IMG/VR virus record: IMGVR_UViG_3300025280_000024
Location: 1 to 64,000 of that record
Length of the DNA stretch: 64,000 bases
Reading direction: 5' to 3' (one strand)
From: a virus
Numbering within the stretch: position 1 is the first letter of the stretch; each line of letters starts with the position of its first letter. Of this stretch, positions 2,889 to 40,685 are shown piece after piece. Both the position numbers and the translations under genes were made by a program. Below the pieces are notes generated by a model. That model did not search any database. It was given only the letters and a program-made list of their open reading frames with translations, and was not told where the DNA came from.

Positions 2889-3235
2889 AGAAGAAACCAC
2901 AGAAGTTCCGAAACCCTATCGCGTATTGCCTCGCAAAGCGCACTGGCAGCGGTTCGGGCAAACATCGCAATCGCGTTCAGGATCTTCGCAAGGGATCATC
3001 GCGTAAGTTGATGCACAAGGCTTTGATCTTTGCTTCTCTTTTGTTTTGCATGAATAGCTCTTCCGCAAATACTTTCATTGATCAAGTTGATGAAGGTTCA
3101 GCCCTTATCTGTTCTAACGATAGTGGCGAGTGGGTTTGCAAGCCGATTTCAGTAGAAGAAATCCGTGAACTTGGATATACCGACGTTGAAGGTTTGATAA
3201 TGATCGAACCAACTGAACTGGAAATAGAGAAATGA
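2885..3235 (+). CDS. Hypothetical protein: basic N-terminus joined to exported domain
   Basis: From a GTG at 2885 that overlaps the upstream stop, the frame encodes 116 residues. Residues 1-42 are strongly basic (R-N-P-I-A-Y, G-K-H-R-N-R), like small stand-alone phage proteins. From residue 43 the sequence looks like a new signal peptide (M-H-K-A-L-I-F-A-S-L-L-F-C-M-N) with a cleavage-like S-S-A-N, followed by an acidic exported domain with two cysteines. An internal start at 3011 would give a normal secreted 74-residue protein. It may be two genes fused, or one frame with two starts. Confidence 0.5.
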   Translation: MKKKPQKFRNPIAYCLAKRTGSGSGKHRNRVQDLRKGSSRKLMHKALIFASLLFCMNSSSANTFIDQVDEGSALICSNDSGEWVCKPISVEEIRELGYTDVEGLIMIEPTELEIEK

Positions 3236-3408
3236 AAGTCGGTGACTTGATAAGACACAAAGATGATCGACGCGATCAATTCTATGTGGTGATCGAAAAT
3301 AATGGCGGCATGACTAAGATAAAACACATAAAACATAGTTGGGAACACTGGTTGTATACAAGGACCTCAGAGGTCCAACAATGGGAGATAGTCTGTGAAA
3401 GTCGGTGA
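3232..3408 (+). CDS. MKVGDLV-family protein
   Basis: A 58-residue protein, M-K-V-G-D-L-I-R at the start and E-I-V-C-E-S-R at the end. It is the first member of a tandem array to 5177. The start overlaps the preceding stop (ATGA). Its last 12 bases, read in another frame, are the start of the next member, so one short DNA word encodes both protein ends. Alternating hydrophobics and G-D-L suggest a small SH3-like barrel. Function unknown. Confidence 0.65.
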   Translation: MKVGDLIRHKDDRRDQFYVVIENNGGMTKIKHIKHSWEHWLYTRTSEVQQWEIVCESR

Positions 3409-3574
3409 CTTGATAAGAAATCCTCGCGCCGGCGCGCTATGGGTCGTGGTAGAAGTGAGCAAAGGCAAAAAATGGCGAGAGGACGGTTATGATATCCTAG
3501 TGATGAGTACCAAAACAGGTTACAAAATGTGGTCATCATCTGATTACTGTTGGAAGATAGTCAATGGCTCTTGA
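3395..3574 (+). CDS. MKVGDLV-family protein (GTG start)
   Basis: 59 residues from GTG at 3395, starting M-K-V-G-D-L-I-R-N and carrying D-I-L-V-M-S-T-K and K-M-W-S-S-S-D-Y. It is nearly identical over its C-terminal half to the member at 3739-3927, so these two are recent duplicates separated by an unrelated gene. This copy ends I-V-N-G-S because the terminal junction was replaced by the start of the next gene. Confidence 0.65.
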   Translation: MKVGDLIRNPRAGALWVVVEVSKGKKWREDGYDILVMSTKTGYKMWSSSDYCWKIVNGS

Positions 3575-3752
3575 GACAAAATGCCTGACAAGTGGTGCTT
3601 ACTTTCTCACCGAAGTCAATGAAAACAGCGTTTCAGTAAAAGTGGATCTTCCCTTTACACTGAACATGACCGAAGAAGAAGCAGAGTTGATTGAACGACT
3701 TATGCACAATCAATTGGAACTTATATTGAGGCCATATTTTGAAAGTCGGTGA
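3564..3752 (+). CDS. Hypothetical protein inserted in MKVGDLV array
   Basis: A 62-residue protein overlapping the previous gene by 11 bases. It is not an MKVGD member: the N-terminal half is beta-like, followed by an acidic helix (M-T-E-E-E-A-E-L-I-E-R-L). Its C-terminus is F-E-S-R, produced by the same junction word (GAAAGTCGGTGA) that opens the next array member. It therefore appears to have been captured between array units. Function unknown. Confidence 0.55.
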   Translation: MALETKCLTSGAYFLTEVNENSVSVKVDLPFTLNMTEEEAELIERLMHNQLELILRPYFESR

Positions 3753-3927
3753 TTTGATAAGAATGGAATATGGCCGCTCACTGTGGGTGGTGACAGAAAT
3801 TTCGCCCGATTCGCCGGGATCTAACGGCATCACAAGTGGTGATATTCTAGTTATGAATACCAAATCAGGTTTGAAAATGTGGTCATCATCTGATTACTGG
3901 TGGGAGATAGTCTGTGAAAGTCGGTGA
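3739..3927 (+). CDS. MKVGDLV-family protein (TTG start)
   Basis: 62 residues from TTG at 3739; the start codon lies in the shared junction. It contains S-L-W-V-V-T-E-I-S, D-I-L-V-M-N-T-K-S-G and K-M-W-S-S-S-D-Y-W, then E-I-V-C-E-S-R. It is a close duplicate of the 3395 member in its second half. Three start codons (ATG, GTG, TTG) are used across the array at the same position. Confidence 0.65.
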   Translation: MKVGDLIRMEYGRSLWVVTEISPDSPGSNGITSGDILVMNTKSGLKMWSSSDYWWEIVCESR

Positions 3928-4102
3928 TCTTGTGAAACCCAGCGACATGATCTGTTGGAGTGACATCGGTGTTATTATGAAAAGATTGTTATCGCCAACG
4001 TGGGAACTCGGCGGTTATGGCGATGTTGTTGTAATGTGGTCTTGCGGATCATATCGAGTGGCTCTTGAATCTAACTTAGTGGTGATATATGAAAGTCGGT
4101 GA
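3914..4102 (+). CDS. MKVGDLV-family protein (GTG start)
   Basis: 62 residues, M-K-V-G-D-L-V-K-P at the start, D-I-G-V-I-M-K-R turn, D-V-V-V-M-W strand, and V-V-I-Y-E-S-R at the end. Both ends are formed by the shared overlap word. Typical family layout; function unknown. Confidence 0.65.
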   Translation: MKVGDLVKPSDMICWSDIGVIMKRLLSPTWELGGYGDVVVMWSCGSYRVALESNLVVIYESR

Positions 4103-4286
4103 TCTTGTAAGAGACAAAGATAACGACATTGGTATAATCGTCGAACTCGACGACACGGTGTCGGATCGCGTGGTTGTTTATTACGCGGCCTTGGGCGAAC
4201 CAGGTGAGCGGGCGACTCTGAACAACGAAGAGAAGTATCAATTCTTGTATGAAGATCAATTAAAGGTGATTTGTGAAGGTCGGTGA
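4089..4286 (+). CDS. MKVGDLV-family protein
   Basis: 65 residues, M-K-V-G-D-L-V-R-D-K-D-N-D-I-G-I-I-V-E-L, a V-V-V-Y-Y strand, and L-K-V-I-C-E-G-R at the end. The junction with the next member is the variant GAAGGTCGGTGA. Function unknown. Confidence 0.65.
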   Translation: MKVGDLVRDKDNDIGIIVELDDTVSDRVVVYYAALGEPGERATLNNEEKYQFLYEDQLKVICEGR

Positions 4287-4440
4287 TCTTGTGAAACTCA
4301 AAGGGACACAACCGTCACAGCTGTATTTCGTCGGCGTTATTATGAAGGTGGGCGAAACATATTGTGATGTGGCGTGGCCTAATGGAAGAAGGTTAATGTT
4401 CAATCGACACTCCTTGGAGGTAATCTGTGAAGGCAAATGA
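4273..4440 (+). CDS. MKVGDLV-family protein (GTG start, short)
   Basis: 55 residues from GTG at 4273: M-K-V-G-D-L-V-K-L-K-G at the start, then F-V-G-V-I-M-K-V-G, D-V-A-W-P-N-G and L-E-V-I-C-E-G-K. The D-V-A-W strand followed by a short turn is the clearest example of the family core. Its 3' end overlaps the GTG start of the next gene, where the reading becomes M-K-A-N-D-L. Confidence 0.65.
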   Translation: MKVGDLVKLKGTQPSQLYFVGVIMKVGETYCDVAWPNGRRLMFNRHSLEVICEGK

Positions 4441-4609
4441 TCTACAATCCTTAAACAACTTAATCGAACAGATTGCTATAATGAAAGAACGAAACTACAG
4501 TTTACTTCCTGAAATGTTAAATAACGAAGAAACATTCAAATCGTTAGAGAGAATACGAGATTATTTTCTTGACTCTCGGCGGCTTTTGTTGTATAATGGA
4601 GAAGAATGA
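4427..4609 (+). CDS. Hypothetical helical protein
   Basis: 60 residues from GTG. The first residues (M-K-A-N-D-L) echo the array start, but the rest is helical and charged (N-N-L-I-E-Q-I-A-I-M-K-E-R, F-K-S-L-E-R-I-R-D-Y-F). It looks like an unrelated gene spliced onto an array junction. Its 3' end contains a complete promoter for the next gene (4569-4597). Confidence 0.5.
   Translation: MKANDLQSLNNLIEQIAIMKERNYSLLPEMLNNEETFKSLERIRDYFLDSRRLLLYNGEE
4569..4597 (+). promoter_or_regulatory. Sigma70-type promoter inside coding sequence
   Basis: TTGACT at 4569-4574, 17-bp spacer, perfect TATAAT at 4592-4597. It lies in the 3' end of the 4427 gene. The next ATG is at 4606, so transcripts from it would start about two bases before the ATG and lose the GGAGAAG ribosome binding site that read-through transcripts keep. 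Confidence 0.7.
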
Positions 4610-4839
4610 GTAATTACCTTCGCGAAGACCAAATCAAAGTTGGCATGTTAGCGAAGTCCTGCTCAAAACCGGACCCCAGTAAATTTTGGATATCAGGCGT
4701 TTCTGTGATTTTGTCTGAACCATTTGAAACCGTGTCGGCCGGGGTGAAGGGCTTAACAGTCAAACTCTTCTCACCGCGTGGAAAAATCGAATATCATAAC
4801 GCCAACTACTTAATTCCGGTGAAAGATGAAAGTCGGTGA
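4606..4839 (+). CDS. Divergent MKVGDLV-family protein with N-terminal extension
   Basis: 77 residues. After a nine-residue extension it reads I-K-V-G-M-L-A-K, then G-V-S-V-I-L-S and L-T-V-K-L-F-S-P-R-G, ending V-K-D-E-S-R from the common junction. This makes it a distant family member. GGAGAAGA precedes the ATG. Confidence 0.55.
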   Translation: MSNYLREDQIKVGMLAKSCSKPDPSKFWISGVSVILSEPFETVSAGVKGLTVKLFSPRGKIEYHNANYLIPVKDESR

Positions 4840-5002
4840 TCTAGTGAAAATAAACCTTAAAAGTCGCGACGACTGGGGCGTTGGAGTTATCGTGAAATTT
4901 GATAATACCTACTTATCGGATGTGCTCGTCGCGTGGTCGAAACTACAGGAAATGTGTTGGGAAATGTCCACCGTATTAGAGGTTATTTATGAAAGTCGGT
5001 GA
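4826..5002 (+). CDS. MKVGDLV-family protein
   Basis: 58 residues: M-K-V-G-D-L-V-K-I-N at the start, W-G-V-G-V-I-V-K-F turn, V-L-V-A-W strand, and L-E-V-I-Y-E-S-R at the end. Both ends are junction-encoded. Family member of typical length; function unknown. Confidence 0.65.
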   Translation: MKVGDLVKINLKSRDDWGVGVIVKFDNTYLSDVLVAWSKLQEMCWEMSTVLEVIYESR

Positions 5003-5177
5003 TCTAGTGAAATACAAAAGCTACCTTCGCGGCAGAGCCTACGAAAATACCTGTGGAACGATTGTTAAAATAGAATATTATGCAAAAGTGGCGTGGTGGG
5101 ACAAAGACAACTTTATTCCAAACCCGACATTTGAAAACCCAAGAGACTTAAAAGTCATTTGTAAAGGAGAACAATAG
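4989..5177 (+). CDS. MKVGDLV-family protein (last of main array)
   Basis: 62 residues: M-K-V-G-D-L-V-K-Y-K-S-Y, C-G-T-I-V-K-I-E, K-V-A-W-W-D-K and L-K-V-I-C-K-G-E-Q. It ends without regenerating the junction word, closing the contiguous array. A real ribosome binding site (AAAGGAGAA) for the next gene overlaps its stop. Confidence 0.65.
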   Translation: MKVGDLVKYKSYLRGRAYENTCGTIVKIEYYAKVAWWDKDNFIPNPTFENPRDLKVICKGEQ

Positions 5178-5756: not shown

Positions 5757-6101
5757 ATGAATAAAACACCTATCAAAATTATAGCCGTTCTTTCTTGTCT
5801 CGCAATCCAAGGTTGCCTGTTGGAGATCGGGCCGGTACGACCACATCCAAGCCCAGATGCCCCGTGTCATAGTGATTGGGATTGCCCATATGACACATAT
5901 TGTGAAATTGATGGATTCTGCTACAAACCCTCTAACAATATCGAATGTTATTCTGATCGAAACTGTCCAATGTTTACTTACTGTGGAATGGATGGTTATT
6001 GTTATCAAGAAGGTTATCGCCATTATGAATGCTATTCTGACTGGGATTGTCCAGTGGGTTATTTCTGTGCCATTAACGATGCATGCTATCTTATCCACTA
6101 A
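5757..6101 (+). CDS. Cysteine-rich repeat lipoprotein
   Basis: A 114-residue predicted lipoprotein. The N-terminus is a signal peptide with lipobox L-A-I-Q-G-C (Cys20 becomes the lipidated residue), so the protein should be exported and membrane-anchored. After a proline-rich linker come three copies of a C-x5-C-x5-C-x5-C repeat, starting at Cys37, Cys64 and Cys92, each with S-D-[WR]-[DN]-C-P. Similar disulfide-rich repeats are common in secreted proteins of Myxococcota and relatives (general knowledge). It has its own strong promoter and apparently no leader. A surface role such as superinfection exclusion or host-surface change is only inferred. Confidence 0.75.
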   Translation: MNKTPIKIIAVLSCLAIQGCLLEIGPVRPHPSPDAPCHSDWDCPYDTYCEIDGFCYKPSNNIECYSDRNCPMFTYCGMDGYCYQEGYRHYECYSDWDCPVGYFCAINDACYLIH

Positions 6102-6110
6102 AAGACAACT

Positions 6111-6305
6111 ATGAAAATGGGTGATTTAGTAAAAGTTTCTGATCGTCATGTAATTTCTTACTATGGTATTGGCGTAGTGATTAAAATCCTTGAAGATTCT
6201 GATATTCGTCTGAGGTTTGCAGACAGACGACCGTTGGCAAAAATTTATTGGAGCGTTCCACAAGAAGTACGAACGTGTTATATTCACACTCTGGAGACAC
6301 TGTGA
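6111..6305 (+). CDS. MKVGDLV-family protein
   Basis: 64 residues: M-K-M-G-D-L-V-K-V-S, Y-G-I-G-V-V-I-K-I-L, I-R-L-R-F-A. This is an outlying member of the array family, lying after the lipoprotein gene. Its stop overlaps the GTG of the next member. Confidence 0.6.
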   Translation: MKMGDLVKVSDRHVISYYGIGVVIKILEDSDIRLRFADRRPLAKIYWSVPQEVRTCYIHTLETL

Positions 6306-6511
6306 AAATAGGTGATCTCGTAAGGGTTAAATATCCGCTTCCGACGCACAATAATCTTTTGTATGCATATTGGGTCAAGAAGCTATCACTATCGAGTGTT
6401 CCCGTGCTTCTGTTATATTATGGAGGTATGGGAGGTTATTGTAAGATTTATTACGATGGACACGAGAGGCGTGTTAGCGAAGATATACTGGAGGTAGTCT
6501 ATGAACGATGA
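6302..6511 (+). CDS. MKVGDLV-family protein (GTG start)
   Basis: 69 residues from GTG at 6302, M-K-I-G-D-L-V-R-V-K, with Y-C-K-I-Y-Y-D-G and a terminal L-E-V-V-Y-E-R. An upstream in-frame ATG at 6248 lies inside the previous gene and was rejected because the family start motif and the overlap both place the start at 6302. It overlaps thyX by 11 bases. Confidence 0.6.
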   Translation: MKIGDLVRVKYPLPTHNNLLYAYWVKKLSLSSVPVLLLYYGGMGGYCKIYYDGHERRVSEDILEVVYER

Positions 6512-12920: not shown

Positions 12921-13655
12921 TTATAGTCTCCAACCCGCAGGCAAGGGGCTGAATATATTTAGTCCTTCCGTGACTTCTATTCCAAACGGAGTTCTGCCGG
13001 CTAACATACTATGAAAATATCCAACATATTCTCCCGTAGAGAGAAATACTCCCCCGCCCGATGATCCAAACCAAGCATCGGAATCTGTGAAAACACGAGT
13101 CCTTTCATCGTTGGCGAAGCCAGACACAATACCTTCCGTAAGAATGGCCGGCGCACCTGTTGGGCAGCCAACGACAAAAAGTTCTTCTCCGATTCTAAAA
13201 TCATGAGAAGGCAGTACTTCTTCTGCTGGTTGCGCGCCTCTAGGCCAATAGCTTAATGGAACCAAAGCAGCGTCCATTCCTGGATTCACTCGCGGCAGGC
13301 CGTTGAACTTTTCTCCCAAAACAATATTAACACAATCTTCTTGTCTAGTATATACATTAATATGACAAGCGGTTTGTTTACTCGTCCGGTTTTCTTGAAT
13401 CATGCGTGCAACTACATGAAAAGCTGTCATCATATAAGGTACGCCATCAACATCTACAAGAACCCCAGATCCAATAATTGGTCCGCCCTCGTTAAGCCTG
13501 ACTGCCAATAAAGAAAGCATAATTTTTTCTCCAACGGCAATATTGTCTGATGTTTCGCGAACTGTTTCTGGTGTTATAATGACTGAAGTGCTGGTGCAAC
13601 AGAGTGTTGCGAGAACAAGAAATAATAAAAGAACTGTATGTTTTAATTTAGGCAT
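12921..13655 (-). CDS. Exported trypsin-like serine protease
   Basis: 244 residues. The N-terminus is a signal peptide (K-L-K-H-T-V-L-L-L-F-L-V-L-A-T-L-C-C); the cysteines suggest a possible lipoprotein, though the lipobox is not ideal. The chymotrypsin/HtrA-like triad is visible: His80 in T-A-F-H-V-V, Asp128 in G-M-D-A-A-L-V, Ser199 in G-S-S-G-G. No PDZ domain follows, so it is shorter than HtrA. It should act outside the cytoplasm. A role in lysis, envelope remodelling or host-surface cleavage is inference. Ribosome binding site GAGGGAGAAAAC. Confidence 0.8.
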   Translation of the reverse strand: MPKLKHTVLLLFLVLATLCCTSTSVIITPETVRETSDNIAVGEKIMLSLLAVRLNEGGPIIGSGVLVDVDGVPYMMTAFHVVARMIQENRTSKQTACHINVYTRQEDCVNIVLGEKFNGLPRVNPGMDAALVPLSYWPRGAQPAEEVLPSHDFRIGEELFVVGCPTGAPAILTEGIVSGFANDERTRVFTDSDAWFGSSGGGVFLSTGEYVGYFHSMLAGRTPFGIEVTEGLNIFSPLPAGWRL

Positions 13656-17533: not shown

Positions 17534-19102
17534 TTATGTCTCAACGATGGCAAAATTTGATGTAATAATTGCGCCGGCAACAGACGCAGCGTTCTGGAGA
17601 GCACAACGAGTGACCTTTGTTGGATCTATAATACCGTTATCAATCATGTGAGTTGGAGTTCCACTGGTAAAATCCCAACCATATTCATAATTTTCATCAT
17701 AAACAGTTGCAAGAACAAGATCAGCCGATTCTCCAGCATTAATAGCCATTTGTCTTATCGGCTCTTCAACAGATTTTTGAATGATTTTAACTCCCAACTT
17801 TTGATCTTCAGTGTCAACTTCAATTTTAAGATCGTGAGCAGCACGAATTAGAGCAACACCACCACCAGGAACAACACCTTCTTGTTGAGCAGACTTAACT
17901 GCTTCTAAAGCATCATCAATTCTATGTCTCTTTTCAATCATCTCAATCTCGGTTGCAGCGCCAACTCTAATCACTGCAATTCCACTGGCAAGTTTTGTGA
18001 TTCGCTCTTGAATCTTTTCACACTCGTGAATTTCTTCTGTTTGACCGATCTCAACTTTGTATGCTTCAATTCTTTTTTCGATCTCTTCCCAATCACCTTT
18101 GCCGCCGGCAATTGTTGTTCTGTTCTTGAAACTTTCAATTTTGCCGGCGAGACCCAAATGTTCAAGTTTAACTTCGCGAAGTTTTAATCCGGACAATCTT
18201 GAAACAAAGGTTGCTCCAGTTGATAAAGCAAGGTCTTGCAAGATCGCTCGTCGTTCTTCACCATACCTTGGAGCTTTGATTGCTGCGACCTTCATTGTAC
18301 CCCTAACGGCGTTCATGATGAGCGCCGCCAAAGCTTGTCCTTCTATATCCTCTGCGACAATGATGAACGGTTTTGCTTCTCTCGCAGCAACCTCAAGAAT
18401 TGGATAAATATCCTCAACGGTTTCGATCTTATAATCTGTGACAAGAATCAGAGGATCGTCGTATACAACTGCTTGTTTTCTTTCATCAGTAACAAAATGA
18501 CCGGCAACATAACCAGAATCGAAGATGAAACCTTCAATCAACTCCAGACTGGTTTCTAATGATCTTGCCTCTTCGACTGAAATTGCTCCATCTTTGCCGG
18601 CGCTATCGACAGCAGTGGCAATAAGGTTTCCAATGGATTCGTCTCCGTTTGCTGAAATGGTTGCGATATGTGCTACGTCTTGTTCACTGGAAATTGGAAC
18701 AGATAGATCCTCTAACTTCTCGACAATAGCCTTGACTGCCTTGTCGATCCCTCTCTTGAGTTCGATAGGAGATGCGCCGGCCATCAAGTATCGTTGTGCT
18801 TGTTTGAGGATAGCTCTGGCAAGTACAGTTGAAGTTGTCGTGCCATCGCCGGCCTCTATGTTGGTTTGTTCGGCAGCTTGTTTGAGAATTTGTGCTCCAA
18901 CATTTTGGATTGGATCATCAAGTTCAACAAACTTCGCTACAGTTACACCGTCTTTTGTTGTGATTGGGTTTTTTCCTTTTTGATAAAGGATAACGTTGCG
19001 ACCTCTGGGGCCGAGAGTTGATGCGACATTGTCTGTTAGAATATCAACTCCTTCTAGGATCTTTTTGTGTAGTTCTGTTTCACTACAATATTGTCTGGAC
19101 AT
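17534..19102 (-). CDS. groEL: GroEL-type chaperonin
   Basis: 522 residues, full-length Cpn60 without the GGM tail (ends A-I-I-T-S-N-F-A-I-V-E-T). Nucleotide-binding G-D-G-T-T-T near residue 86 and the hydrolytic aspartate in H-R-I-D-D-A-L-E-A are present, as are L-G-P-R-G-R-N-V near the start and G-V-V-P-G-G-G-V. All three domains are recognisable, so it should be an active ATP-driven folding ring. Some large phages of Pseudomonas and Aeromonas also carry GroEL. The start overlaps the end of the 544-residue gene. A GroES-like gene lies at 32.2 kb, not beside it. Confidence 0.97.
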   Translation of the reverse strand: MSRQYCSETELHKKILEGVDILTDNVASTLGPRGRNVILYQKGKNPITTKDGVTVAKFVELDDPIQNVGAQILKQAAEQTNIEAGDGTTTSTVLARAILKQAQRYLMAGASPIELKRGIDKAVKAIVEKLEDLSVPISSEQDVAHIATISANGDESIGNLIATAVDSAGKDGAISVEEARSLETSLELIEGFIFDSGYVAGHFVTDERKQAVVYDDPLILVTDYKIETVEDIYPILEVAAREAKPFIIVAEDIEGQALAALIMNAVRGTMKVAAIKAPRYGEERRAILQDLALSTGATFVSRLSGLKLREVKLEHLGLAGKIESFKNRTTIAGGKGDWEEIEKRIEAYKVEIGQTEEIHECEKIQERITKLASGIAVIRVGAATEIEMIEKRHRIDDALEAVKSAQQEGVVPGGGVALIRAAHDLKIEVDTEDQKLGVKIIQKSVEEPIRQMAINAGESADLVLATVYDENYEYGWDFTSGTPTHMIDNGIIDPTKVTRCALQNAASVAGAIITSNFAIVET

Positions 19103-32448: not shown

Positions 32449-35400
32449 CTATAGCTCACAGTAGTCGCCGTCACAGAACTTTGTTCCATTGCCGGCATTG
32501 TTTGTCTTAATTCTCTGAATTGGTATGACATCTTTAATCATTTCCTTATATTGTTCTCTTGTGATCGGTTCGTATGGTGCCTGCACATAGCCAGTCTCCT
32601 TGTATTTTAGAAATGAGACCGCCTTCAGTCTTGTTTCATACATTTCCAAAGCAGATTTAATGTCTTTTGCTTCTTCGGGTTGAAACGTGCAAGTGATACT
32701 CACAGAATTGTCTGCCCAATAATGTTGATATTGCGCAGCAATCTCAAGCTGTTCCCAAATGCTAACATCTTTCTTTCCTTTCTCGAAAAACGGTTCGTGA
32801 ATGGGAAACTCCACAACCTTTGTGTTTGGCGAGTATTCATCATCTTCGATCTTGAAGCCGTGCTCTCCAATAGTCTTAAGAAGATCAGAATCAGCTGAGA
32901 AGCGAATGCGACGAATATAGAACTCTGATTCGGGAAAATGAATCCCAGGTGTTGAGCCGTTGAGCAGTGATACTGTTCCCGATGGTTTGATGCTCGTTGT
33001 GCGCACAGAGCGAGGGACGCACAGCCAATCTGAATAACCCTTATCTAGTTTTCTCACTTCTTCGTAAGCATTATCACACCAGTTATATAGCTCTCTTCGG
33101 CCGTGCTTGTTGAAAGCTTGAACAACGCCCGACTGTGAAAGTCCGATGCGGCGATTCTTCAACATAATGCCGTTTGTCTCTGGCCAATGCGTATTAACCA
33201 GTGTGACTGTTTTCCCGTACATATAAGCAATCTTCAATGTCTTCAAGTAATCTTCATAGTCGTCGTGCTTGGCCGGAAACGTCTCTACTAAGCAGCATAA
33301 TTCTGCATCTTCCAACTGTTGTTCGACACAATTGTGAGCATACAACCCGTTTGCATCAAAAGCGTGTACTTCTGCAACCGTAATATCATATACAGGTTCT
33401 TCTCCCAAGCCAGTAATCGAACTAACTGTTGCCAAGAATTTAGTCTTATTGGGTTTACGCTTATATTCCGAAAGCAAAGTCTTTAACTTAAGACGCTTTG
33501 AGTCGTGAGAAAAGCCAATTCTTTCTTCATAATAAAATAAGTCTTCACCAGAAATCACAAGCTCATGTGATGCCTTTGTATCATACCAAGCATTTCCACC
33601 CTTTCCATCGGGTAGATATGATTTGCCGGCAACTCTTCTGTTTTGATAAATTCGACTGGAAATCCCCATTCTCAATAACATTCTTTGAACAGCTTGTAAC
33701 CTTTCTGTGTTAGACTGAGATAATCTTATCGATACACCGTTGGCTTGTGTACCTTGAACACTACCATCAGCATCAAAAAACCCACGAAGATAGCCGGAAT
33801 AGAACTCACAAGATGTTTGTTCAATATTCTCAGTAACTCGCTTAGTTCTGTCAATATTATAAGAGGAGGCTAACTTGTTCAATTCACCTAAACGCAGCCT
33901 GCTCTCGTTCCTTGAAGTTATATGAGACCAACCCTTGAAATCTTTACGCTTTTTCATTGGGGCAATTGAATTTAACACTTCTGTCATAATGCCAGTGTGA
34001 GATTCATCGTCTTCATGCCAAACGGATAAAATCGCCTGCTCTTTCGCAAACGTTCCGTCTCCCGTCAAAAGCCCAAGAAGATATCCCTCACCAAAAATCC
34101 CTTCACCTTTCCACTGATAGCCGCGATGATCGTTCAACACGATTTTATCATCGACGGAAATCTCCGACAATGGAAGCCACCCTTTCGAAGTCATAAGTTT
34201 GTGATTATCGGTTAGTTTAAGAGTGTGACCTTCAGCAGTCTCAATCTCAAAAACTTTCTTAATTCCTGTTTTCCAAAACCCATTACTGGTTGACTCGTAC
34301 TCTTTGCCGTCGACAATGATTTTCCCAAAATCAACATTCTGAATCATATCGCGAACTTGCCTGGGTCCAGTCGAAGTGTGTATCCAAGTATCGACTGTAA
34401 CACATGGATTGAAACCTGCGACATTAATGTCATCATCTCTATATCCGTCCTTCATCCTGCCACGAGTTTTGGCATTATCTAGCCAGATGTATCCTGGTTC
34501 TCCGTTCTTTTGTGATTGTTCTGAATGCCAAGTATAATCCATCCCAACATAGGCATTAAAAGAGTTGTTTGATCCCCATCGATGTGAATACAACTTCTTC
34601 TCATCATTCTTCATTGAAAGATAATCCATGTCGTTGTATTCACCCAGAGCTAACGCAGCAGATCGTCGAACGTTGCCGGCAACAACACATTTGCCAATGA
34701 GGTTTTCTGTGTCAACGATTGTTGTTGAGCGGATTTCTTTTCCTATCCGTTCGTCATAAAGCTCTTTGAGATCATCGTGAAGTTGCTTCAAAGGTTTGTA
34801 TCCAGAAGAGGTACCGCCGAATCCCTTGATTGGGGCACCATATTCTCGGATCTTGCTGTAATCAAACCTTGGAACTCTTTGACCGAAGAAATACCCATCC
34901 AACAAAATCTGAACTGATTCACACCAGCCTTCGCGGTCGTCTGGAACATAATGTACTTCGTCTATCCATTCGGGTTGCTTTACCGTGAGCTTTCTGGACC
35001 CGAGAGTATCAAAACCAACGCCCACGCCAAGCATAAGAGCGTCCATAATCCAACGGAATAGATAACCACCTTTGGTGTCGATTTCGCGTGTTGATCTAAA
35101 AGAACAGTTAAATAGTCCTGCACCGGTGCGTTCCTCCACGAATTTTGTGCCCATCATCCACAGCCCTCGGCCGGGTGGAGTCCATTTGAGGTTAAATAGT
35201 CGATCATAAGCTTCTTTTGCTGTCTTCTGTGCTTTTGTATCGTTCCATTCCAATCCAAGACTGGCAACGTGTTTCTTCTGAATCGTGAACATCCCTTCGA
35301 TGACTCTGCGACAGGTTTGAAACCACTCTTCCGTGCCTTCTGTTCCTGGATCAAATTCATCTAGCCGACGCGCATAAGTCCTCTTGTATGTAATATAGCC

Positions 35401-35499
35401 AACAGGACCCCATGGGACTTCTTCATGTCTATATTGATCAATGAAAACCTCCGATAAGCGAAACCTTCTTACTGTCTGTTGGTATGGATCATATTTCAT
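32449..35499 (-). CDS. nrdJ: Class II (B12-dependent) ribonucleotide reductase with intein
   Basis: 1016 residues as translated, about 658 after removing a 358-residue intein (residues 366-723). The exteins match adenosylcobalamin-dependent ribonucleoside-triphosphate reductase: N-C-S-F-R near residue 131, G-N-V-R-R-S, then F-N-P joined to C-V-E-Q-Q-L-E-D-A-E-L-C-C-L, where the C is the radical-bearing cysteine, and P-S-G-T-V-S-L-L-N-G-S-T-P-G in the C-terminal half. It makes dNTPs without oxygen and without a second subunit but needs cobalamin from the host. It overlaps the helicase gene by four bases. Confidence 0.93.
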   Translation of the reverse strand: MKYDPYQQTVRRFRLSEVFIDQYRHEEVPWGPVGYITYKRTYARRLDEFDPGTEGTEEWFQTCRRVIEGMFTIQKKHVASLGLEWNDTKAQKTAKEAYDRLFNLKWTPPGRGLWMMGTKFVEERTGAGLFNCSFRSTREIDTKGGYLFRWIMDALMLGVGVGFDTLGSRKLTVKQPEWIDEVHYVPDDREGWCESVQILLDGYFFGQRVPRFDYSKIREYGAPIKGFGGTSSGYKPLKQLHDDLKELYDERIGKEIRSTTIVDTENLIGKCVVAGNVRRSAALALGEYNDMDYLSMKNDEKKLYSHRWGSNNSFNAYVGMDYTWHSEQSQKNGEPGYIWLDNAKTRGRMKDGYRDDDINVAGFNPCVTVDTWIHTSTGPRQVRDMIQNVDFGKIIVDGKEYESTSNGFWKTGIKKVFEIETAEGHTLKLTDNHKLMTSKGWLPLSEISVDDKIVLNDHRGYQWKGEGIFGEGYLLGLLTGDGTFAKEQAILSVWHEDDESHTGIMTEVLNSIAPMKKRKDFKGWSHITSRNESRLRLGELNKLASSYNIDRTKRVTENIEQTSCEFYSGYLRGFFDADGSVQGTQANGVSIRLSQSNTERLQAVQRMLLRMGISSRIYQNRRVAGKSYLPDGKGGNAWYDTKASHELVISGEDLFYYEERIGFSHDSKRLKLKTLLSEYKRKPNKTKFLATVSSITGLGEEPVYDITVAEVHAFDANGLYAHNCVEQQLEDAELCCLVETFPAKHDDYEDYLKTLKIAYMYGKTVTLVNTHWPETNGIMLKNRRIGLSQSGVVQAFNKHGRRELYNWCDNAYEEVRKLDKGYSDWLCVPRSVRTTSIKPSGTVSLLNGSTPGIHFPESEFYIRRIRFSADSDLLKTIGEHGFKIEDDEYSPNTKVVEFPIHEPFFEKGKKDVSIWEQLEIAAQYQHYWADNSVSITCTFQPEEAKDIKSALEMYETRLKAVSFLKYKETGYVQAPYEPITREQYKEMIKDVIPIQRIKTNNAGNGTKFCDGDYCEL
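33331..34404 (-). other. Intein with LAGLIDADG homing endonuclease, inside nrdJ
   Basis: 358 residues. It begins with Cys (C-V-T-V-D-T-W-I) after F-N-P and ends H-A-F-D-A-N-G-L-Y-A-H-N, with the next extein residue Cys, so all splicing residues are present (Cys1, penultimate His, final Asn, Cys+1). Block B T-x-x-H is seen as T-D-N-H. Two LAGLIDADG motifs, Y-L-L-G-L-L-T-G-D-G and Y-L-R-G-F-F-D-A-D-G, show an intact endonuclease. It interrupts the reductase exactly at the active-site cysteine, a common homing site. Confidence 0.95.
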
Positions 35500-39823: not shown

Positions 39824-39852
39824 ATTATAACAGTTCTCTTCACAATTGTAAA
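39824..39852 (-). promoter_or_regulatory. Sigma70-type promoter of ssb-recA
   Basis: Minus strand TTTACA (39847-39852), 17-bp spacer, perfect TATAAT (39824-39829), overlapping the 3' end of the tubulin-like gene. Confidence 0.7.
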
Positions 39853-40685
39853 GCCTTTTTTTCTGTTTCTCGAAGTTGGATCAAAGAGGAATGCGCAACA
39901 CAATACACATAATCTTCATCATATTTGGTCGAATATATACCATATGACGTTTTGATATCGTGATTTTCGATGTTGTCAGTTATCATCTTGAACAATGCCG
40001 TATCTGTCTTGAGCCTTTCATCATTGATACCATAATAATACACCATTTCACGCACGTTGTCAAGTAAAAAAAACATTTTTTGTTCGTTTTTTAGAGAAGA
40101 AATTCCAAAGGTCGATATTCTTGCTATTTCGTGCGGTTCAGAGAAATTTCCTACAATAAAATCAGAATGATTGAAAACATTAATCATATGAATAGTGGAA
40201 ACAATCAGTTCATTCAATTTATCATAGTATCCCATGACGGCGACACCACCTAAAATTTCTTCAAGACAAGGGTTTGAAACCAAATACAATCGCTTAATCA
40301 GACCAGACCTAGCATATTCCTGCAATACATAATAAACCAGTCTTTCTTGCTGCCTCTTTTTCTCTCCCAAAAGCGCGATATTCGGCTGAATATACAGCAC
40401 ATTAGCCTGATGAGACCCGAGTTGCTCAAGCAGTCGTAAAGCCCCTCCACTGACGTTTCCTGACCCTCCCAGGATAAACAGTATATCAGTATCTATCTTA
40501 TTGAAAACGTTTGTATAGTCGCTTAGATGGTCCTCGTACTCTTCCGGTGTTTCAAAACGAGGCAGAAAATAACAATTCTCTCCATAGATGTCGACGTCGA
40601 ATTTTATGATTTTATACTGAGGGTGCTTTGCGAATCTGTCTGCTATGTTGCAGCCGGCAGATCCCAGACCAATTATAGTTTCCAT
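39840..40685 (-). CDS. Divergent tubulin/FtsZ-superfamily GTPase-like protein
   Basis: 281 residues. It opens I-I-G-L-G-S-A-G-C-N-I-A-D-R-F, as FtsZ does (G-x-G-x-x-G-x-N). After a predicted strand comes G-G-S-G-N-V-S-G-G (73-81), in the place of the tubulin signature G-G-G-T-G-[ST]-G. Next are Y-I-Q-P and E-K-K-R-Q-Q-E-R, where FtsZ has its K-P-F-x-x-E-G-x-x-R region, and L-V-S-N-P-C-L-E-E-I near the FtsZ nucleotide loop. It lacks a long FtsZ tail. It may form filaments that position phage DNA, like PhuZ, but both signature loops are altered, so GTP use is uncertain. It overlaps the polymerase gene by 13 bases. Confidence 0.6.
   Translation of the reverse strand: METIIGLGSAGCNIADRFAKHPQYKIIKFDVDIYGENCYFLPRFETPEEYEDHLSDYTNVFNKIDTDILFILGGSGNVSGGALRLLEQLGSHQANVLYIQPNIALLGEKKRQQERLVYYVLQEYARSGLIKRLYLVSNPCLEEILGGVAVMGYYDKLNELIVSTIHMINVFNHSDFIVGNFSEPHEIARISTFGISSLKNEQKMFFLLDNVREMVYYYGINDERLKTDTALFKMITDNIENHDIKTSYGIYSTKYDEDYVYCVAHSSLIQLRETEKKALQL

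Follow-up and report, generated by a model that had tools for sequence, protein, structure and literature searches.

We analysed a stretch of 64,000 nucleotides (nt) of viral DNA, hereafter called the window, which is the first 64 kilobases (kb) of the 102-kb virus record IMGVR_UViG_3300025280_000024 of IMG/VR. Between positions 3232 and 5177 of its plus strand, in a rightward region of small genes, eight genes for mini-proteins with MKVGDL-type starts lie head to tail, and at seven junctions a short word is read in two frames, as the end of one gene and the start of the next. We consider it very likely that a T4-like phage carries here an array of gene cassettes ready for recombination, in which the shared two-frame joints let whole genes be exchanged. 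The record probably belongs to a T4-like marine phage; the window carries genes for a T4-type gp23 capsid protein, a gp32-like protein, a RecA-family protein and a DnaB-type helicase.

The evidence comes from related loci that carry such arrays. Over 11 kb two of them, L015 and L018, have an identity of 99.5-100%, and the 176 nt by which they differ correspond to exactly one complete member. The order of units is [55]=[18]-[56] in L015 and [55]=[56] in L018 (where = is the overlap at the word and - a 4-nt overlap), and the two words of this difference share 20 exact nt. L018 has the 14-nt word overlap where L015 has the 4-nt overlap, hence word was joined directly to word, as recombination at the word predicts. 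Differences of one unit were also found between L151 and L153 and between L036 and L045. An earlier note, made from the window's sequence by itself, had proposed a cassette whose shared junctions allow genes to be gained, lost or swapped without harm to the frames, and had expected related phages to differ in their arrays if it was right; independent comparisons of related contigs agree with the proposal, and the comparison of related phages did find array variation.

We then considered 260 homologous blocks of 80-900 nt inside the arrays of all loci, with 300 random shifts as control. Both block ends lay at words in 116 of the 260 blocks, compared with 1.3 +/- 1.1 in the shifted control, where no shift gave more than 4, and the blocks were mostly 150-250 nt in size, that is, one gene. 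Non-collinear blocks occurred at 0.91 per kb of homologous array sequence versus 0.17 per kb elsewhere. Units 0, 3, 5, 6, 9 and 10 recur in differing orders across L063, L151, L161 and L030 (for instance [5]=[0] in L063, [0]=[6] in L161 and [0]=[3]=[9] in L151; a further combination, [15]=[0], is found in L173), and the longest direct chain consists of 13 members (L161).

The joint word and the anatomy of the array

The open reading frames (ORFs) of the eight members, of 55-65 amino acids (aa), are all open, as the earlier note had described, with ATG as the start in four, GTG in three and TTG in one. The word [AGT]TGAAAGTCGGTGA is common to seven junctions, each a 14-nt overlap (3232/3395, 3564/3739, 3739/3914, 3914/4089, 4089/4273, 4606/4826 and 4826/4989, by gene starts), and it is exact in six of them and has a mismatch in one. 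In (T)GTGAAAGTCGGTGA the upstream frame reads C-E-S-R-stop and the downstream frame M-K-V-G-D, which bears out the claim of one word encoding both ends. On the plus strand TGAAAGTCGGTGA occurs between 3233 and 5002 in seven exact copies and one with one mismatch; when up to two mismatches were allowed, 13 matches were observed against a mean of 1.9 in dinucleotide-preserving shuffles of the window. The statement that every junction is identical was too broad, since these seven share the word but the joints 3395/3564, 4273/4427 and 4427/4606 are not the word overlap and 3232 is entered via a 4-nt ATGA overlap. Similarly, members 3395 and 3739, described as recent duplicates, are alike in 73 nt of the 3' half (89% identity) and in the first 24 nt (96%), but their middle parts do not align.

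We fetched related loci from IMG/VR by the word, and the figures of the first scan are lower bounds, the family being larger than this sample. In the viral loci fetched in this way the word recurs at least about 900 times. The first set of loci contained at least 670 MK[VI]GD starts, which gave at least 602 distinct proteins of usable length and at least 373 clusters at 45% identity. At least 408 pairs of neighbouring units overlap by 14 nt and, among the matches listed, this overlap was present at 434 of 658 scorable MK[VI]GD starts. The joint is larger than the word of the earlier note: it spans about 27-35 nt, with consensus TTGGAGGTNATCA-RTGAAAGTCGGTGA-TTTGGT, and comprises ribosome-binding site, start, last strand and stop. 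The conserved TTGGAGGTNATCA upstream of the start encodes L-E-V-I-(S) of the upstream protein and is also a Shine-Dalgarno site at the normal distance (consensus TGGAGGT, about 6 nt 5' of the start, among the matches listed).

The use of codons at the joint follows both readings. The Glu of LEV is coded by GAG in 304 of 314 members ending in the word (97%) and in 159 of 192 other members (83%), with a background of 44%, and Glu itself occupies this position in 81% of the former and 56% of the latter. Both the codon and the residue are enriched in word-ending members, so that the ribosome-binding site, as judged from sequence, probably accounts in part for the conserved C-terminal motif. At the start, Val3 is coded by GTC in 76% of cases versus 21% in the gene bodies and Gly4 by GGT in 90% versus 30%, counts from which one GTC word per locus was taken out against search bias and in which some bias stays. 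An RNA signal (the Shine-Dalgarno site) and a DNA repeat apparently shape the protein termini, and the family's conserved ends would be two readings of one DNA word.

The features of the array and of the detached members nearest to it are listed below; the family-profile expectation values (E) of the ORFs of the window refer to a set of 22 proteins.

3232..3408, plus strand: array member 1 (MKVGDLIRHKDD..., 58 aa, ATG); entered by a 4-nt ATGA overlap; family profile 6e-10
3395..3408, plus strand: joint word GTGAAAGTCGGTGA; member 1 stops (CESR*) and member 2 starts in it
3395..3574, plus strand: array member 2 (59 aa, GTG); family profile 2e-9
3564..3752, plus strand: non-family gene in the array (MALETKCL..., 62 aa); 3' end is the joint word (FESR*); no Pfam match
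3739..3927, plus strand: array member 3 (62 aa, TTG); family profile 4e-11; predicted five-stranded barrel, predicted local distance difference test (pLDDT) 87
3914..4102, plus strand: array member 4 (62 aa, GTG); family profile 2e-12
4089..4286, plus strand: array member 5 (65 aa, ATG); family profile 3e-13
4273..4440, plus strand: array member 6 (55 aa, GTG); family profile 1e-15; joint word with one mismatch (TGAAGGTCGGTGA)
4427..4609, plus strand: non-family gene (MKANDLQSL..., 60 aa); degenerate joint GTGAAGGCAAATGA; same GGAGGT ribosome-binding site
4569..4597, plus strand: sigma-70-like promoter TTGACT-17-TATAAT (11/12), a consensus match only, inside the array and directly 5' of ORF 4606
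4606..4839, plus strand: ORF of 77 aa with the joint word at its 3' end (KDESR*); unsupported as a family member (E 0.23)
4826..5002, plus strand: array member 7 (58 aa, ATG); family profile 6e-15; predicted SH3-like barrel, pLDDT 93
4989..5177, plus strand: array member 8 (62 aa, ATG); family profile 2e-13; its end lies outside the word (CKGEQ*)
6111..6305, plus strand: detached family member (MKMGDLV..., 64 aa); family profile 2e-10; 4-nt overlap with the next gene
6302..6511, plus strand: detached family member (MKIGDLV..., 69 aa, GTG); family profile 3e-7

ORFs 3564 and 4427 had been taken as unrelated genes inserted at junctions, and their family-profile scores below 0 agree with this. 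The list of dispersed relatives held in part: 6111 and 6302 are members, ORFs 10199, 440 and 9791 match the family profile weakly (1e-5 to 1e-4), ORFs 655 and 867 and the C-terminal part of 10704 are borderline (about 1e-3), and membership of 4606, 9139 and 11576 is unsupported (E 0.2-1.2).

Directly joined units leave no intergenic space, hence promoters must sit upstream, inside genes or in occasional spacers. The totals of promoter-like and terminator-like sites in the region were not clearly above those of shuffles, and the promoter-like sites would be compatible with early expression from host-type promoters. In several arrays there is a spacer, about 52 nt in size, that contains a TATAAT-like box. 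This spacer recurs in near-identical form before different units in L063, L151, L153, L161 and L030, and it is perhaps a mobile promoter cassette within arrays.

Breakpoints, proposed mechanism and alternatives

For the break test, genes were called and each gene start was scored according to whether homology ended at it or ran through it. Homology ended at 78% of the words, at 42% (139/332) of those other starts that had a word within 600 nt and at 22% of distant starts; at an identity of at least 95% the respective values were 35%, 13% and 5%. The ratio between words and near starts was 1.9 to 2.7 at every identity threshold (0.78/0.42, 0.57/0.25, 0.35/0.13). The word is a preferred break site beyond the general instability of the region, and gene boundaries count as such too. 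Joints also hold foreign genes, namely one for a DUF2061 membrane protein, bounded by the word on either side (L048), one for a DUF3310 protein (L058) and one for a GIY-YIG protein (L062), and relatives of the 3564 product in L060 and L016 likewise end in the word.

Each unit comprises a single gene of about 150-220 nt, counted from one start word to the next, and the words are direct repeats at that spacing. The joint gives the upstream protein its predicted last beta-strand (LEVI), ESR tail and stop, and the same bases give the next gene its Shine-Dalgarno site, start and MKVGD. We propose that words of one genome or of two recombine or anneal with each other, which would add, remove, replace or reorder the units between them, and the products would keep ribosome-binding site, start, stop and both frames because all of these lie in the word. 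From the positions of the breakpoints we infer that exchange would proceed via homology at the word; the phage encodes RecA-family and gp32-like proteins of its own. The units would presumably be translated from a polycistronic messenger RNA with local initiation at each word. On balance, although with limited confidence, we also favour a wider view in which this is a new platform: a hypervariable pool of mini-genes shared by many marine phages, with a two-frame coding joint as recombination site, so that any unit, captured genes included, could be spliced into any array and expressed at once.

The strongest alternative, which we judge improbable, is ordinary mosaicism, in which illegitimate breaks would fall anywhere and selection would keep those at gene boundaries, the word being conserved as a compact, efficient and inherited site of translational coupling and not as a guide for recombination. 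The strong Shine-Dalgarno site of the joint suits this account, as do the word-free insertions or deletions at gene boundaries (L070/L105 and L082/L110) and the other gene starts near arrays that coincide with breaks (the 139 of 332 above). However, words break more often than these neighbouring starts by the ratio given above, whichever threshold is used, and the 20 exact nt shared by the words of L015 and L018, together with their 14-nt and 4-nt overlap states, indicate word-to-word joining.

Some further points weigh against recombination at the word. Near gene starts devoid of it break too (42%), and selection purging breaks within genes would also put breakpoints at gene boundaries. The contig pairs in the break comparisons are non-independent, and the data are metagenome assemblies only, no single isolate having been seen to change its array. 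The frequency of the word is inflated by the finding of the contigs via the word itself, for which the removal of GTC words is a partial correction. Finally, a test for concerted evolution of words inside single genomes was negative: the identity of the 14-nt core was 0.924 within contigs and 0.915 between them, hence words of one contig are no more alike than those of different contigs and there is no sign of local homogenisation.

It is very improbable that the orders and the insertions or deletions are artefacts of assembly, generated by assemblers that fuse different phages of mixed metagenomes at a short repeat. All the array data are metagenomic and the word is a repeat, but the exact repeats that neighbouring words share are below 30 nt in nearly all cases, less than the usual read size, and arrays recur across many data sets and in deposited contigs of metagenome-assembled genomes (MAGs). 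Moreover, shared units with different neighbours diverge by up to about 20-25%, hence their rearrangements are old, and the ratio of non-synonymous to synonymous substitution rates (dN/dS) of 0.2 in the gene bodies fits real genes. A dedicated site-specific system (an integron-like integrase, an invertase or a homing endonuclease) moving units with the word as its target would explain their cassette-like form with a common boundary site and the GIY-YIG domain of one array gene (L062), but we give it hardly any credence, since the common site is wholly coding, with 14-nt overlaps in at least 408 cases and no room for attC-like elements, and GIY-YIG was found in one inserted gene only, no systematic recombinase search having been made.

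The products, their distribution and the neighbourhood

AlphaFold2, run with 89 sequences, predicted for member 4826 a confident SH3-like barrel (pLDDT 93; strands 6-9, 19-25, 33-37, 42-46 and 51-55) and for member 3739 a similar five-stranded barrel with the same strand order (pLDDT 87). The LEVI motif is the last strand (residues 51-55 in member 4826), with the ESR tail beyond it. Foldseek neighbours were KOW, Tudor and PWWP domains and YorP of B. subtilis, each at E above 0.001, and against BFVD many small uncharacterised viral proteins were matched. Many of the top BFVD matches have neighbouring accessions (A0A516MB52, MB64, MB67 and MB72; A0A516M735, M749 and M778; A0A516LBZ1, LC03 and LC12), as though single viral genomes had each contributed several of them. 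The family profile matched that of NusG KOW (E 5e-4). No Pfam or NCBIfam family passed its cutoff (best Pfam value 8e-4, to SH3_15 in one member; none for NCBIfam), Pfam KOW matched 3 of the 89 members (best E 0.002), and the best PHROG match (1.4e-5) was to a family of unknown function. Structure prediction, Foldseek and the profile match agree with the SH3-like barrel that the earlier note had guessed, and the members would be, on these models, hypervariable SH3/KOW-like barrels.

For pairs of related units dN/dS was 0.20 across the body, with a lower value of 0.04 over the initial seven codons and a higher one of 0.32 over the final eight; the frames are thus under purifying selection as proteins, which supports their translation. 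We tentatively predict that the products could be early binding proteins directed to the host or its defences, with a repertoire reshuffled against changing hosts; the earlier note had guessed at host-binding inhibitors. In keeping with this are their small size, a modelled fold of binding type without evident catalytic motif, their hypervariability and their presence/absence polymorphism between near-identical phages. Further features of the context are the promoter-like sites and an accessory region with transfer RNA (tRNA) genes; Rfam near the array gave tRNAs only.

In cultured phages, no tblastn match at E<=1 was obtained with either one consensus or 12 concatenated members, the matches of a second consensus were few and scattered (E 0.08-10), and no record covered a 37-nt joint query to 80%. 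In Salmonella phage Det7 a 19-nt stretch matches the joint, but it was rejected because it runs antisense to the gene annotated there. Eight whole records were also searched with the profile, the nearest gp23 relatives (Immutovirus, Mel-JY01, RM378, S-SSM4 and B23) among them; none had an array, and two had a single weak match each. The family, common among contigs of viral metagenomes and not detected in those cultured phages that were searched, may therefore represent a large class of phage effectors that is so far unstudied.

The 12 matches in genome collections were mostly MAG contigs of viral look, two of them (L131 and L138) with no family member at the site, and those in bacterial collections probably consist for the most part of viral sequence. 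A contig of a Halobacteriovorax MAG matches an IMG/VR contig in length (101,404). In the WOR-3 'chromosome' L205 (CP070664.1, about 2.140-2.149 megabases) phage sequence with a terminase-like gene and joint words appears to be joined across N gaps, and this chromosome is possibly a scaffolding chimera. Among the ThyX-neighbour relatives, 14 of 17 were without family members in the DNA examined, hence ThyX does not mark the locus.

Other ORFs of the window were observed as follows.

1-440: two adjacent ORFs with W-Y-L-N-G-K-R-H-R-E-D-G-P-A repeats, MORN-like by eye
5757-6101: three cysteine-rich repeats of the CYSDxDCPxxxYC type in a probable secreted protein, unusual in phage; weak Dickkopf_N match (5.5e-4, below cutoff)
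12921-13655, minus strand: lipoprotein-like ORF resembling a trypsin-type serine protease (SDAWFGSSGGG)
17534-19102, minus strand: GroEL-like chaperonin encoded by the phage
32449-35499, minus strand: ribonucleotide-reductase-like ORF with an apparent intein interruption (CVTVDTWIHTSTG...HAFDANGLYAHNC)
39840-40685, minus strand: possible FtsZ/tubulin-like protein (GLGSAGCN...GGSGNVSGG), adjoining the gp32-like gene

Comparison with known systems

The question addressed by these arrays is how phages keep and reshuffle a large stock of uncharacterised small genes. The joint is visible, the units can be counted and near-identical natural phages differ by single units, hence the rate and route of exchange are measurable. 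In the literature searched, with few subscription papers within reach, no such array was described and no wholly coding, two-frame joint with ribosome-binding site, start and stop was found.

The predicted structures of two members are small five-stranded barrels of the SH3-like/KOW kind, the same small beta-barrel type as the NusG C-terminal domain (2xhc, 2lq8) and uL24, but the members are without a partner NGN domain or a ribosomal context. The best match among solved structures was YorP of Bacillus subtilis (2heq; Foldseek E 0.0095, template modelling score 0.77 on the query), a small protein with the same kind of barrel, although at 18% identity the resemblance is of fold only. We take YorP to be encoded by a gene of the SPbeta prophage, and we know of no array for it.

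Integron cassette arrays are tandem single-gene units at a common site, variable in order and content, which accept unrelated genes, and the present arrays share all these properties. However, integrons have a non-coding attC after each cassette, whereas here directly joined units have no intergenic sequence, the site is coding in two frames, and homologous recombination is likely instead of an integrase.

Promoter-early stem-loops (PeSL) of T4-like phages are short repeated intergenic motifs that mediate modular gene shuffling (Arbiol et al. 2010; Comeau et al. 2014; both as described in PMC4503421). As in that description, a short motif repeated between small genes goes with an exchange of modules in our arrays, as found in the blocks, the order of units and the break frequencies, and some arrays have short promoter-like spacers. 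The PeSL is by that description an intergenic promoter plus stem-loop, whereas the present joint lies wholly inside two overlapping reading frames, with ribosome-binding site, start and stop, and the at least 408 unit pairs that overlap by 14 nt have no intergenic early promoter and stem-loop between them. Shuffling at repeated motifs is already known from PeSL and integrons, and the coding two-frame joint would be the new part.

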